Shown here: piece by piece, positions 21,868 to 58,366 of the stretch
How the letters are laid out: each line of letters begins with the position of its first letter
Position numbering within the stretch: position 1 is the first letter of the stretch
Source: Geobacteraceae bacterium
GTDB lineage: Bacteria > Desulfobacterota > Desulfuromonadia > Geobacterales > Pseudopelobacteraceae
DNA: 64,000 nucleotides
NCBI GenBank assembly: GCA_013336525.1
Contig: JAAXTM010000012.1
Coordinates: 1-64,000, forward strand
Direction: 5' to 3'
Made by a program: the position numbers and the translations under genes
Notes under the pieces: generated by a model
The model's database searches: none
What the model was told of the DNA's origin: nothing
The model's input: only the letters and a program-made list of their open reading frames with translations

Positions 21868-21942
21868 AGGGGTATAGCCAAACGGTAAGGCAACGGCCTC
21901 TGACGCCGTCATCTCTTGGTTCGAATCCAGGTACCCCTGCCA
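21868..21942 (+). tRNA. tRNA-Gln, anticodon CUG, CCA encoded
   Basis: Cloverleaf: AGGGGTA/TACCCCT acceptor, GCC..GGC D arm, ACGGC-CTCTGAC-GCCGT anticodon arm, CTTGG-TTCGAAT-CCAGG T arm, GCCA 3' end. Confidence 0.95.
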
Positions 21943-21943
21943 A
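21898..21943 (+). repeat. attL (46-bp core within tRNA-Gln 3' half)
   Basis: Identical to 58278-58323: CTCTGACGCCGTCATCTCTTGGTTCGAATCCAGGTACCCCTGCCAA. Confidence 0.95.
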
Positions 21944-21948
21944 TATAC

Positions 21949-21985
21949 AAGCGGGTTCACAGAGTTTTCGTGACCCGCTTTTTAT
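21949..21985 (+). terminator. Phage-supplied terminator downstream of the tRNA-Gln gene
   Basis: AAGCGGGTTCAC-loop-GTGACCCGCTTTTTAT. Confidence 0.7.
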
Positions 21986-29115: not shown

Positions 29116-29824
29116 CGATACCTATCGAATATTTTCCATTCACTACTGATATATCTGCAGCAGCGGTCAAGCCAGCCATATAGCTATCAGCTGATGTTAT
29201 CCATTCACCCCATGACGCGGCCTCCGTTACATCTGGGAACGTGAAAGCAGTTGGTGTCTGTACTGTTGCTGACTCTTCGAAATTGCTGAAAGTGATCGTT
29301 GATGATGGGGTTGTGTTGACAACAATATCGTTGAGCAGACCGCTGAGAATGGTAGGTGGTACTTGAACTGGTGACGCCAGCTTAATACCGGTAGTGACGA
29401 CTGCTGTGGCAGCTCGTGGGGCAACAATGATGCCACCGTTAAACCTGATACCGGTTGTGAACACCCCAGCTGCTACTGTTGAGCTGGAGACTGCGCCATC
29501 GAGTTTAACTGCTAACCCTGCCAATGAGGCTGCCTGACCGATAGTGTTGCCACTCAGCAATGGCGTGACTGAAAGTGCCGCTGATACAGTCGCAAAAGAA
29601 ACAATGGTTGCCGTCAAATCCCACTCCAGCACCAACTGGAATGGTGGCGATGTGACTGCCGGACCATCCCCTGTCGTTGGAGTGATCCGCAGCAACATGT
29701 CATACGTCCCGGCAGTCAGTCCGGTTATGGTAATAACCTTCCCTGGTCCGACCGGTTCGGACGCGGTATGCAGCACCCAGCTTGAGCCGTTATCAATACT
29801 ATACTCAGTTTTGTGTGACAGCAT
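28967..29824 (-). CDS. Phage tail fibre-associated protein sharing TTGIxFNG-type repeats
   Basis: GVFTTGIRFNGG..VVTTGIKLASP repeats similar to the 24715-27009 ORF. Confidence 0.55.
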   Translation of the reverse strand: MLSHKTEYSIDNGSSWVLHTASEPVGPGKVITITGLTAGTYDMLLRITPTTGDGPAVTSPPFQLVLEWDLTATIVSFATVSAALSVTPLLSGNTIGQAASLAGLAVKLDGAVSSSTVAAGVFTTGIRFNGGIIVAPRAATAVVTTGIKLASPVQVPPTILSGLLNDIVVNTTPSSTITFSNFEESATVQTPTAFTFPDVTEAASWGEWITSADSYMAGLTAAADISVVNGKYSIGIGAFVSTPGTISNGQRLRLQVYSSTTSYGSETCTVTVGTYSTTFTAISGE

Positions 29825-47598: not shown

Positions 47599-47739
47599 TT
47601 AGTAGGTGACGGCGGCGGTTAGTACGGCAGCCGAGAGCCAGTAGATGATTTTTCGGATGTCGCCGTGGGTGGCATAGGCACCGGCGGCGCAGACGTCAAG
47701 AATTATCAGTAATGTCGGGAAAAATTTGGTTGTGAGCAT
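47599..47739 (-). CDS. Small phage membrane peptide
   Basis: Absent from ORF track (46 aa): MLTTKFFPTLLIILDVCAAGAYATHGDIRKIIYWLSAAVLTAAVTY*. Confidence 0.4.
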   Translation of the reverse strand: MLTTKFFPTLLIILDVCAAGAYATHGDIRKIIYWLSAAVLTAAVTY

Positions 47740-47740
47740 A

Positions 47741-48709
47741 TTATGCGGCTCTCCTGTCGAGTGGGCTGGCTACTTCGTCCATTTTTGGCAATAAGTGCAG
47801 ATAGATCATGGTGGTCTTGACATCGCCATGTCCCATCAACTCCTGCAGCCGTTTTAAGGCTATTTCGTGGCTCCCTTCGGCGTTTTCCAGCCAGTGAGTG
47901 GCGAAAGAGTGGCGGAAGGTGTGGCAACTGGCTTTTTTAGGTACTTTTGCGGCAAGTATCGCCTGTCTGACCCGTTTCTGGATGGCGGTTTTGTGAATGT
48001 GGTACAGTTTCCCTTCCCATTGTGGATCAACACAGGGGCCGGAGGCGGGGAACAGCCAGAACCACTCCCATGAATAGGGCGCATTCGGGTATTTCTTGTC
48101 AAGGCGATCAGGCAGTGACACCGGTATTTTGTCGGCGGCGTATTTTTCCTGCAGCGTTTCCATCTTCCTGAGCTGTTTTTGCAATGGCTCAACGAGCAAT
48201 TCCGGCAGTGGCAGCATCCGGTCTTTGCCCCCTTTACCTTCGCGGACGCAGAGCAGACGACGGTCAATGTCAATGTCCTTGACGCGGAGGTTGCTGGTTT
48301 CTTCGACTCTGAGGCCGCAGCCGTACATGAGCGCACCCCACAACCAGCCGATGCCGTCCAGGTTGTCAAGCACCCGCCAGACTTCCTGACGGCTGAATAC
48401 TTCCGGCAAACGCGGAATGCGTTTTGCACGGCAGAAAGAAAGATCACCCAGCTCGATCCTGACGACCCGTTTGTAAAAGTAGACAATCGCGCAGAGTGCC
48501 TGTTTTTGGGTCGCGGCGGAAACATTGAAGCGGTTGACGGTATGGGAGAGAAACATACCGATCTTTTGCTCTGGTGTTTCGGCTGCGCATGTCACGAGAA
48601 AGGTCATATATTTTTCAATCCATTCCAGATAGGCTTTGATCGTCCAGCGGCTTTTGCGCTGTAACTTCATTGCATCAGTCATCAGGGTTATTGCTTCTAC
48701 CTTTTTCAT
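47741..48709 (-). CDS. intI: Integron-type integrase (IntI family tyrosine recombinase)
   Basis: R (YGCGLRVEE), K (GKGGKDR), HxxR (CHTFRHSFATH), H (LMGHGDVKTT), Y (TMIYLHLL) all present. IntI-specific additional domain between motifs: LPDRLDKKYPNAPYSWEWFWLFPA. C-term SPLDRR. Confidence 0.88.
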   Translation of the reverse strand: MKKVEAITLMTDAMKLQRKSRWTIKAYLEWIEKYMTFLVTCAAETPEQKIGMFLSHTVNRFNVSAATQKQALCAIVYFYKRVVRIELGDLSFCRAKRIPRLPEVFSRQEVWRVLDNLDGIGWLWGALMYGCGLRVEETSNLRVKDIDIDRRLLCVREGKGGKDRMLPLPELLVEPLQKQLRKMETLQEKYAADKIPVSLPDRLDKKYPNAPYSWEWFWLFPASGPCVDPQWEGKLYHIHKTAIQKRVRQAILAAKVPKKASCHTFRHSFATHWLENAEGSHEIALKRLQELMGHGDVKTTMIYLHLLPKMDEVASPLDRRAA

Positions 48710-48802
48710 GGGGATACCTCCTAAAAGATTTATGTTTCAGTCTTTTAAAAGATTACCCCTGAAAAATAGATAGTCAACAGGGCTGTCTAATTGATGTTAT
48801 AT
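48710..48802. other. Candidate attI region (core GTTATAT at 48796-48802)
   Basis: Non-palindromic R-type core between the intI start and the first cassette; includes palindrome TCTTTTAAAAGA. Confidence 0.6.
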
Positions 48803-49447
48803 TCTTCTCTGCTGTTGCGCTATTTCCGGGCAATCTGGACGCCAGTGTCCTAATTTACCGCAATAAGTACATCTCTCAGGGTTGCCCCACTGTTGCGCCA
48901 TTGCGGAGGCAATCCCCGCGAATGTCTTGCTTCTTTCCTTCCACCGATCAGGGCTTGGCGGCATTTTATGAATCCTTGCCTCTCTGCCGTCCACAATGTT
49001 AGAGGGTGTCAACAGCGGCAATCCCTTCAACCACAAACAAGTGGCTTTCGTTTCACCGTGGCCGAATTGCCATGGCTGGATTACCTGGTCAGGCTTGCGC
49101 CACTGAGTTGACATAATGCAGACAGGGTTCTCAATCGCCAGATATTTAACAGGCAGTTCGGCAATCCGCATAAAAAAGTCTATCGCTGCCTGTTGTCTGC
49201 CGTCTGCCCGTTTTGCCGCAAAATGCCGCGCACCGGACACGCTCAAATGAGTGCAGGGAGGGTGAGCAATCACCATGTCCCAGGTGTCACTATTGAACAC
49301 GTCGAACATGTCCGCCTGATAATGTGTCTCGTTCTCTTCGCAGGGTAAGTCAGTGTCCAACAAGTCACAGGATGCGGCCTCATGCCCCATCTTTGCAAAT
49401 GCTCGTCTGACTGTTCCGCTGTACTCACATGCAACCAATACTTTCAA
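48797..49447 (-). CDS. Cassette 1 ORF: DNA cytosine methyltransferase-like protein with CCHC zinc knuckle
   Basis: LVACEYSGTVRRAFAKMGHEAASCDLLDTD; PPC motif (AHPPCTHLS); IENP; C-term CTYCGKLGHWRPDC (CX2CX4HX4C). TTG start with GGAGG. Stop TAA = first 3 nt of the cassette. Confidence 0.75.
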   Translation of the reverse strand: MKVLVACEYSGTVRRAFAKMGHEAASCDLLDTDLPCEENETHYQADMFDVFNSDTWDMVIAHPPCTHLSVSGARHFAAKRADGRQQAAIDFFMRIAELPVKYLAIENPVCIMSTQWRKPDQVIQPWQFGHGETKATCLWLKGLPLLTPSNIVDGREARIHKMPPSPDRWKERSKTFAGIASAMAQQWGNPERCTYCGKLGHWRPDCPEIAQQQRRI

Positions 49448-49460
49448 AATTACCTCCAGA

Positions 49461-49521
49461 ATATAACCATCGGGTGCAAAGCGATTCGCTTCGCTCCCGT
49501 TTGACCCTCAAGCCGTTATGT
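49461..49521 (+). repeat. attC-like site 1
   Basis: R'' ATATAAC - CATC - L'' GGGTGCAAA - GCGATTCGCTTCGCTCCCG - L' TTTGACCC - TCAAGCC - R' GTTATGT; one extra base in L'' relative to L'. Confidence 0.78.
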
Positions 49522-49523
49522 GG

Positions 49524-49811
49524 CTAGGCCAAGTCCTCTGGAAATTCCCGCTGAAGTATGGCCTCGATTTGGGGAACGATGTTGTCGAAGTCAAATACCC
49601 GGCCTTTTATCACCATGATTTGATAATCTGACGCGGAAATGTGATGAATGCCGTGGAGGTTGTGCATCTCTTCCAGCCAAGGATAAACCCCGAAAGCCTC
49701 CCTATCACCATACTCTGTGGAAAAATACCGCTTGCCGTCTTTTGCCAGCTTTCGGTCAATGTAAATGACTTTGCAATCCATGTTTTGCGGTTGCTCGATG
49801 ATGATTTTCAT
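49524..49811 (-). CDS. Cassette 2 ORF: hypothetical 95-aa protein
   Basis: MKIIIEQPQNMDCKVIYIDRKLAKDGKRYFSTEYG..., RBS AAGGAG; fully inside cassette 2. Confidence 0.65.
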   Translation of the reverse strand: MKIIIEQPQNMDCKVIYIDRKLAKDGKRYFSTEYGDREAFGVYPWLEEMHNLHGIHHISASDYQIMVIKGRVFDFDNIVPQIEAILQREFPEDLA

Positions 49812-49845
49812 GTGCTATTCTCCTTTGAGATATTACCGCACCGCC

Positions 49846-49908
49846 ACATAACCAGCGGCACGATCAGGGCGGGAAAAGCCCCGCCTACTCAGCCTTTAAA
49901 CGTTATAG
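49846..49908 (+). repeat. attC-like site 2
   Basis: R'' ACATAAC - CAGC - GGCACGA - hairpin GGCGGG/CCCGCC - TCAGCC - TTTAAAC - R' GTTATAG. Confidence 0.68.
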
Positions 49909-51264
49909 TGCTTCGACCTTCTGCAAAAAACTCCCCTTGAATACCTGCTTTGTCTCCATGATCATCGCCGCCAGTTTTTCTCCGAGATCACCGGCGCCTT
50001 TGACCGCTTCGATACTTAATTCCATTTCTTTGGTACTGAATACGACCTCTCCGGCATCCTGCATTTTATAATAGACCTCACGGTTGTCGGTGATGGTGTA
50101 TGGCCTGCCTTTGCGGTCAGTCATGCTTTTGATGAGCGGTGGCGGGGTGTCTGATGTTTTTACCGGTGCTTGTCCGCCCGGCGTGCCTTGCTGGACCCGA
50201 TAGGCGGCGGGTAATGCACCTTCAACCCATTTAACCAGATCTATACCCCCCTGGTATGCTTCGCCGGGGTCTTTATAGCCATCCGGGACCGGGTAGATGG
50301 TCGCGCCGAAGGTTTCTATCCACCAGGCTGCACCCTTTGCCCCGGCTTCGTCGTTGTCGAGGGCAACTTTGATCTGGATTGCCTGACCTCTGCCGCGCTC
50401 TTGTTCGAGTATCTGGCCGATGATGTTGGCGTCCGGCTTGGTGTGGCTGCTCCCCATGCCGATAAAGGCGGCGAGTTCTCCGGCCAGGCTGTGCAGCATG
50501 ATGGCGTCAAGTTCGCTTTCGACAATAATAATTGTTTTCCAGGCGCGGCGCGGGGTGGCGTCGAGCAGCATGGGGGTTCCGCTGGAGCCGGGGGTTACAT
50601 AATATCTTGGTTCACCGGTTGCGCGTCTGATCCTGATGCGTGCGGGGGTGCCGTTGACTGACCAGGGGATGGTGATGCCGATTGGCAGCCATAGTTTTTT
50701 GGCTTTGCCGTCGTCGCGGAGGACTTCATCCAGCCCCCAGGCGCTCCGGGCGCGATAGAGGTCTTTATCTTTTTCGCCGGGGTTAAAGCCGAGTTGCAGT
50801 TTTGCGATGGTTGCATCGCTGATGCCCCGTTTTTCGTTGAGCCACTTCACTTGTTGCGGGTTGGCCAGCAGTGCCTGGTGGCAGTTGTTGATGAATTTTG
50901 CGGCGCGTTCCTGCCAGAGTGCCGGGGTCTGTTTTGCTTCGGTGGCGTGGTACTGTTTTTTAACTGTTTGCGCCGCCGGTTCGCTGCTGTCCTGTTTAGG
51001 GTCATATTCTTTGCCGACTTCGCTGCAGGCTTGCTTGTAGGACATCCCTTCGATGTCGCGCAACCATTGGAGAGCGTCGCCCCCTTTATCGCAGCCACGG
51101 CACCACCAGGAGCCACGGCCATCATCCTGCAAAGGCCAGATGTGCATCCGGTTTGAGGTGCCGGTTTTGTCTGCGGGGGTGCAGAGTGGGCAGGGGCCGT
51201 GGTATTCGCCCCCTTTGTTGCTGCTGACCCGCTTCATGTTTTGTGATCTTTCGAGGATGTTCAT
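49903..51264 (-). CDS. Phage DNA primase (CHC2-type zinc finger + TOPRIM)
   Basis: GPCPLCTPADKTGTSNRMHIWPLQDDGRGSWWCRGCDKGGDALQWL; IIVESELDAIMLHSLAG TOPRIM; stop codon lies in the R' core of attC-like site 2. Confidence 0.85.
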   Translation of the reverse strand: MNILERSQNMKRVSSNKGGEYHGPCPLCTPADKTGTSNRMHIWPLQDDGRGSWWCRGCDKGGDALQWLRDIEGMSYKQACSEVGKEYDPKQDSSEPAAQTVKKQYHATEAKQTPALWQERAAKFINNCHQALLANPQQVKWLNEKRGISDATIAKLQLGFNPGEKDKDLYRARSAWGLDEVLRDDGKAKKLWLPIGITIPWSVNGTPARIRIRRATGEPRYYVTPGSSGTPMLLDATPRRAWKTIIIVESELDAIMLHSLAGELAAFIGMGSSHTKPDANIIGQILEQERGRGQAIQIKVALDNDEAGAKGAAWWIETFGATIYPVPDGYKDPGEAYQGGIDLVKWVEGALPAAYRVQQGTPGGQAPVKTSDTPPPLIKSMTDRKGRPYTITDNREVYYKMQDAGEVVFSTKEMELSIEAVKGAGDLGEKLAAMIMETKQVFKGSFLQKVEAL

Positions 51265-56984: not shown

Positions 56985-57199
56985 GCGGACTAGCCATCTT
57001 TGCCATAATCATCGGGGTAATAGGATTCTTTTTTCTCTCCAATGCCACCACGGGTACAGGAATAATATGCTTTGGCTGCCTGTTGGCTATCATAGCCCGA
57101 ATGAATCAAGCGGATAAGCACCATGCAGAAACGACCCAGGTACTAAACTCGATCAATCGGAAAGTATATGAGCTACCGTCTCCATCCGACAAAGAATAA
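56981..57199 (+). CDS. Small membrane protein
   Basis: 72 aa, two hydrophobic segments; overlaps lipoprotein gene stop and integrase start. Confidence 0.5.
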   Translation: MSGLAIFAIIIGVIGFFFLSNATTGTGIICFGCLLAIIARMNQADKHHAETTQVLNSINRKVYELPSPSDKE

Positions 57200-58283
57200 A
57201 AACCTTCAACCAGGCGAACCACGCTGGTACCAGGTCGAAATCGGTCACAGTGACAACCGAAAAACTATCGTCATGCAGTTTGAGAATGATCGCCAGGCGC
57301 AAATATACGACAACGACCAGAAACGCGCCCACCGGCCAGAAATAAGCACCATCGTTGCACCCACCCTCAATCAGATCCTGCCGGACTTTGTCGAATGGTA
57401 TGGACTACATCGACAACCGCGAGCGCTGGAAGCATGGCTGCAGAGCTGGAACAATCTATCGCCCCATTTCGGTAAACTTAAACCGAACTACCTCACCCCG
57501 GCACTGATCGACCACTATAAAAGCCATCGCCTGGCACAAAAAGCCGGTATTCGCGCAAATCTGGTCTGTAAGCGCACCGTACAAAAAGAACTCAATTGTC
57601 TATCAGGCATTATCCGTTTTGCCACTGAGCGCAATTTCTGTGAGCCGCTGCCGTTTAAAATTGCTACCTTTCCAAAATCACAAACAGCACCACGGAAAAA
57701 GATCATCCCCACCCCTGACCAAGTGGAAGCGATGCTGGCAGAAACCAGATCAGACCTCCGGCCACTCTACCAACTGCTATACTATACCGGCATGAGGAGC
57801 GAGGAGGCCCGCACGATAACAGCGGACAGCGTCAACCTGGAAAGCAACGTGATACTAATATCAGGGAAAGGGAACAAACAACGCATAGTGCCAATCATCC
57901 CGCAACTGAAACCGGTACTAGAAGAATTGAAAAAGGGGAAAAAAGCGGGGGATCTGCTGCTGATATCCAAACGATCCGGAAAGGGGTATAAGCCAAACAT
58001 CGGCAGGGTAGGGGCATCAGCAGAAAAAGCGGGGATCACCGCCCACATGAGCGCTCACATGTTCCGGCACTGTTTCGCCACCCACTGCATATATTGGGGC
58101 CTGGACACGCGAACAGTCCAGATGCTGCTCGGTCACTCGGCCATAACCACCACGCAGATGTACACAGAGCTTGCTGCAAGTTTCTTAACGCAGGAAATGA
58201 GCCGCTTCGGGAATACCCCGACGGAAACAGCCAATAAACCAAAACAAAAACAGCCGGTTAAACGTAAAGGAAAGAAACTCTGA
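57168..58283 (+). CDS. Prophage site-specific tyrosine recombinase (integrase)
   Basis: R (YYTGMRSEEARTI), HMFRHCFATH, LLGHSAITTTQMYTEL; adjacent to attR, stop TGA inside the att core. Confidence 0.92.
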   Translation: MSYRLHPTKNKNLQPGEPRWYQVEIGHSDNRKTIVMQFENDRQAQIYDNDQKRAHRPEISTIVAPTLNQILPDFVEWYGLHRQPRALEAWLQSWNNLSPHFGKLKPNYLTPALIDHYKSHRLAQKAGIRANLVCKRTVQKELNCLSGIIRFATERNFCEPLPFKIATFPKSQTAPRKKIIPTPDQVEAMLAETRSDLRPLYQLLYYTGMRSEEARTITADSVNLESNVILISGKGNKQRIVPIIPQLKPVLEELKKGKKAGDLLLISKRSGKGYKPNIGRVGASAEKAGITAHMSAHMFRHCFATHCIYWGLDTRTVQMLLGHSAITTTQMYTELAASFLTQEMSRFGNTPTETANKPKQKQPVKRKGKKL

Positions 58284-58323
58284 CGCCGTCATCTCTTGGT
58301 TCGAATCCAGGTACCCCTGCCAA
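58278..58323 (+). repeat. attR (46-bp core)
   Basis: Identical to 21898-21943. Confidence 0.95.
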
Positions 58324-58330
58324 AACTTCA

Positions 58331-58366
58331 ACGGGTTAGCTCATAACAGAGCTAACCCGTTTTTAT
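58331..58366 (+). terminator. Original host tRNA-Gln terminator, displaced to attR
   Basis: ACGGGTTAGCTC-ATAACA-GAGCTAACCCGTTTTTATT, 12-bp perfect stem. Confidence 0.75.

Follow-up and report, generated by a model that had tools for sequence, protein, structure and literature searches.

Integrons are known as bacterial gene-capture platforms, with drug resistance as the famous case. Integrons and attC clusters have also been described in phages, including captured chromosomal integrons of Vibrio and Shewanella (p16/p42, M16-3), a class 1 integron in phage P1, and attC clusters devoid of intI (CALINs) in lytic phages (Qi et al. 2023, PMC9892861). Integrons of Treponema have their intI transcribed in the direction of attI, and the cassettes follow (PMC3607928).

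The window analysed here, a 64,000-nt stretch of DNA from a Geobacteraceae bacterium, very probably carries, judging from its sequence, a true integron housed in a lineage of temperate phages, where it would serve the exchange of accessory genes. Like the phage integrons of Qi et al., it combines IntI, attI, attC sites and cassettes within a phage and has a methyltransferase gene in a cassette; with the classic integrons (class 1, Vibrio, Shewanella) it shares the extra domain of IntI, attI at the start of intI, attC sites with R and L boxes and an extrahelical base, and cassette boundaries at G|TT. However, the intI-bearing phage integrons of Qi et al. go back to integrons of host chromosomes or to clinical ones, whereas the IntI of the window belongs to a phage-specific clade located in phage operons. 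Unlike in classic integrons, nearly all cassette genes of this clade face intI, those of the Shewanella M16-3 array reading away from it; no outward cassette promoter stood out in a scan. A common direction of intI and cassette genes is also seen in Treponema, but attI of the window lies at the start of intI, its classic position, and the inversion concerns the genes within the cassettes. Pieces of integrons in phages have already been reported; for a phage-dedicated integron lineage with inverse cassettes, we found no description in the open-access literature.

Prophage setting of the module

An earlier reading of the sequence alone (hereafter the sequence-only reading) had placed an integron-like module within a prophage, between terminase and primase genes, and had noted a separate integrase belonging to the prophage itself. 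Both points hold. Genes for the portal, head protease, major head, tape measure and tail fibre proteins are present, the 3' part of a tRNA-Gln gene is repeated (86%) at 21880-21957 and 58260-58337, marking the attachment site, and the module is flanked by genes of the phage backbone:

45178..47597, (-) strand: large terminase subunit of GpA type, plus a 177-aa gene where the small subunit is expected, the proximal backbone flank
49903..51264, (-) strand: phage primase, the distal backbone flank
57168..58283, (+) strand: phage-type integrase of the prophage, separate from IntI and adjoining the tRNA-Gln end repeat

The module itself comprises the following features:

47741..48709, (-) strand: intI, a 322-aa integron integrase with the IntI extra domain and a complete tyrosine-recombinase active site
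48762..48798, (+) strand: attI, about 35 nt conserved, with the inverted repeat TAGATAGTC...GGCTGTCTA and the core GTT at its end
48797..49515, (+) strand: cassette 1, 719 bp, with an inverted methyltransferase gene and attC at the 5' side of the gene
48797..49447, (-) strand: gene of cassette 1, a 216-aa DNA methyltransferase-like protein (PHROG 757) with a C-terminal zinc knuckle
49461..49521, (+) strand: attC of cassette 1, with R'' ATATAAC, L'' GGGTgCAAA including the extrahelical base, L' TTTGACCC and R' GTTATGT
49516..49902, (+) strand: cassette 2, 387 bp, with an inverted 95-aa gene and attC
49524..49811, (-) strand: gene of cassette 2, a 95-aa protein with no family match
49846..49908, (+) strand: attC of cassette 2, weaker, with a short L helix and R' GTTATAG

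The last R' box overlaps the stop codon of the primase gene, so that the array ends at a gene of the phage backbone. The zinc knuckle of the methyltransferase (CTYCGKLGHWRPDC, 48797-48880) lies beyond the part common to most of its phage relatives. The 95-aa protein had no relatives in the libraries searched, and a further search yielded only two short, weak matches.

Since the prophage possesses its own integrase and is bounded by the tRNA-Gln repeats, IntI is not needed for lysogeny. Tyrosine recombinases commonly integrate phages and the host chromosome contains isolated attC-like sites, so the IntI-like enzyme could be conceived as a phage integrase directed at such chromosomal sites, with the palindromes as attP-like sites. 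However, the prophage has the other integrase, its tRNA-Gln end repeats contradict such a role, and several sites per phage are arranged as repeated units of gene and attC; this explanation is extremely improbable.

The integrase and its lineage

The 322-aa protein scored 294 bits with TIGR02249, the curated integron-integrase model of NCBIfam (cut-off 265), and its top PDB match was Vibrio IntI4 (2a3v), with an alignment spanning LPDRLDKKYPNAPYSWEWFWLFPA, the segment peculiar to IntI that lies between the motifs of the recombinase. The catalytic residues R134, K159, H263, R266, H294 and Y303 are invariant across 18 relatives. The protein had been proposed to be an IntI with the additional domain, and lack of this domain had been named as a possible objection; the domain aligns with 2a3v, the catalytic set is intact and the identification stands. 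In the phylogeny that had been suggested as a further check (88 rows), the window protein fell within the IntI family, apart from the Xer proteins of the host, in a clade of 26 members supported at 100/100. The clade consists of viral contigs and loci of bacterial genomes, a number of which have terminase or portal genes nearby; viral status follows the IMG/VR assignment, and several of the contigs have terminase, portal or primase genes adjoining intI. A tblastn search of 50,697 annotated phage records returned no well-covered relative with at least 40% identity.

The host has a second IntI of its own, which falls outside the 26-member clade:

G000 contig C27:14141-15079 (L063, L083): second IntI of the host, chromosomal-type, 350 bits with TIGR02249, in an open frame of 469 aa

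The contig continues for only 1.6 kb past this gene. The existence of a host IntI would fit a recent capture of a host or clinical integron by a single phage, of the kind documented for the Vibrio anguillarum phages or P1 (PMC9892861), in which case the phage location would be incidental. Yet the phage IntI groups in the tree with those of other phages and prophages in a fully supported clade to which the host IntI does not belong; this contradicts the scenario and largely refutes it; furthermore, a common attI, inverted cassettes and cassette genes of phage type recur through the clade. Capture by one phage is therefore very unlikely.

Detection of attC sites and cassette boundaries

Scanning for palindromes alone yielded too many chance matches, and an orientation-aware attC scan and chain-walking with controls were used instead. 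In addition, a covariance model (R1) was trained on 18 phage attC sites, with the sites of the window left out. Known attC sites aligned too poorly in MAFFT to be made into a model and served as the test set for the phage-trained one. Within the clade, 39 of 39 matches of R1 lie on a single strand. It should be noted that the training sites were picked by our own criteria and that matches of R1 on the same loci are partly circular; the independent tests are the window sites and the class 1 controls. R1 recovered attC sites of class 1 and Shewanella integrons on the gene-sense strand, and gave no significant attC match in some members of the clade (for example, L005, L094 and L020).

Across the 64-kb window, the two top-ranking matches of R1 are 49461-49521 (40.0 bits, E = 1.3e-7) and 49846-49908 (24.7 bits, E = 0.0012), followed by a non-significant match at 29731-29795 in the late region of the prophage (E = 0.63). 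As folded DNA, the first site reaches a z-score of -3.55 on the strand expected to recombine, and the second a z-score of about -1, not clearly better than shuffled sequences. The attI stretch also turns up as a hairpin in the window. Rfam contained no match at the attI and attC sites, its sole match within the window being a tRNA elsewhere. The canonical attC scan, which relies on the extrahelical base in L'' and on thresholds of our own, returned 29 sites in the direction of the array and 6 in the opposite direction upstream of intI, against 4 and 6, respectively, downstream of it.

The chain-walk starts from attI and expects the GTTNNNN at the start of each cassette to be reverse-complementary to R'' in the attC of that cassette. 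Perfect complementarity of this kind is a mark of the insertion of a circular cassette. All seven positions agreed in 28 of 37 clade cassettes (2.2 on average and at most 9 over 10,000 shufflings), and both window cassettes are among the perfect cases: cassette 1 starts with GTTATAT and has R'' ATATAAC, and the start of cassette 2 pairs with its R'' ACATAAC. The boundaries fall at G|TT after 48796, 49515 and 49902. The sequence-only reading had delimited two attC-ended units, 48797-49515 and 49516-49902; these boundaries proved exact, and rejection of the two sites by a covariance model, which would have spoken against them, did not occur.

Two isolated attC-like sites without an adjoining integrase were found in the host chromosome with the phage model, at G000:C24:333666-333727 (L252, L256; 36.8 bits) and G000:C11:9714-9773 (L253, L257; 29.6 bits).

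A conserved attI-intI block followed by differing arrays

The core of attI, GTTATAT, occupies 48796-48802, where an attI-like core had been predicted. In related prophages and phage contigs, the block of approximately 35 nt ending at GTT recurs upstream of intI, and when 22 loci are aligned on the core, the information content stays high as far as the core and is close to zero past +4. Pairwise BLASTN comparisons of phages returned a single block that begins at the core and reaches the end of intI, with 79% identity for L103 and L151, 83% for L096 and L097, and 82% for L088 and L164. DNA homology stops close to both ends of the block in these three pairs, and outside it their arrays are unrelated except for short stretches. 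A conserved attI-intI block with unrelated arrays past the core is the appearance expected of an integron platform. A 46-aa ORF directly after intI (47599-47739) is 62-77% conserved in L088, L164 and L097 and may travel together with the block.

Arrays of the clade contain up to six cassettes with differing genes, six consecutive ones in L103 and five in L151, the latter including two identical 547-bp cassettes in tandem. DNA methyltransferases are encoded in the arrays of L018, L088, L090, L097 and L103, those of L088 and L090 having been assigned by reading the sequence rather than by family search, and L103 also carries a PAPS-reductase-like gene. Other cassettes hold phage families of no known function, among them PHROG 12600, which occurs in two different phages (L096 and L151). 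The order of helicase, primase, array, intI and small terminase in L091 is the same as in the window, with other cassette genes. That relatives would always carry the same two genes, the outcome which had been named as an objection to cassette exchange, was not observed, different genes being found past the attI-intI block. The methyltransferase-like gene of cassette 1 (PHROG 757) is common among phages; a few copies have attC-like flanks, in stretches without IntI, and a search for it in other arrays revealed only the common phage gene. No relative of the window with a near-identical backbone and a swapped array was found. In L099, cassettes of 705, 741 and 705 bp succeed one another, a different cassette lying between two copies of the same 203-aa ORF, possibly as a result of duplication through recombination.

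These arrays bear on whether the integron of the window has decayed, with IntI and its sites persisting and both cassettes now fixed phage genes that are no longer exchanged. The weak second attC, the presence of only two cassettes and the overlap of the array end with the primase gene could be read in this way. However, IntI is intact in all catalytic positions, the window has a strong first attC, both cassettes bear the full start signature, and relatives have varied arrays and an identical tandem cassette, making decay unlikely.

Orientation of cassette genes and proposed mode of exchange

Both cassette genes of the window lie on the strand of intI and read toward it. Throughout the clade, 34 of 37 phage cassettes have their largest ORF pointing at intI, gene orientation being judged by the longest-ORF rule and attC orientation being fixed from the extrahelical base and attI. 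Under the identical rule, all 12 genes of the Shewanella M16-3 control array point away from intI, with the same handedness of attC. The classic geometry ascribed to the locus by the sequence-only reading thus applies to the placement of attI and attC, but not to the cassette genes. A promoter scan detected one weak outward promoter-like match at attI, and the total number of matches equalled that expected by chance.

Under the reading of the locus as a genuine phage-resident integron, IntI would recombine single-stranded attC hairpins with the double-stranded attI beside its own start codon, and circular cassettes would insert at G|TT. The platform sits in the replication-to-packaging operon of the phage, the transcript of which would run through helicase, primase, array, intI and terminase, toward intI, and would read only those cassettes in which the gene is inverted relative to attC. 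Because the operon runs in this direction, the inverted genes would be those that the phage can express, and since the genes of 34 of 37 cassettes read toward intI, the cassettes appear to be swappable segments inside a phage operon. The phage would in this way swap accessory genes, prominently DNA methyltransferases, which probably protect it from host restriction.

On balance, we lean toward the broader view that an integron lineage has turned into a phage organ: its attI-intI block would be both inherited and exchanged among phages and would draw on a cassette pool of its own, with inverted genes that phage operons alone can read, to swap anti-defence and other accessory genes. If true, this would provide a site-specific mechanism for part of phage genome mosaicism and a directed renewal of anti-restriction genes by phages. 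Inverted cassettes would constitute a pool that ordinary integrons leave silent, raising the testable question of their place of origin and of any mixing between the two pools. The attI-intI block offers a ready probe for further phage integrons.

Viral IntI loci outside the clade

Among viral IntI loci outside the clade, two-cassette chains occur near chance level by a rough estimate, with the exception of L130. Two viral contigs with distant IntI genes, L139 and L138, display possible inverse cassettes with long attC-like stems, possibly at chance level, and L139 is only a lead. L130 (IMGVR_UViG_2834908352_000001), filed as viral, carries an array of 15 cassettes adjoining IntI, in the classic gene direction.
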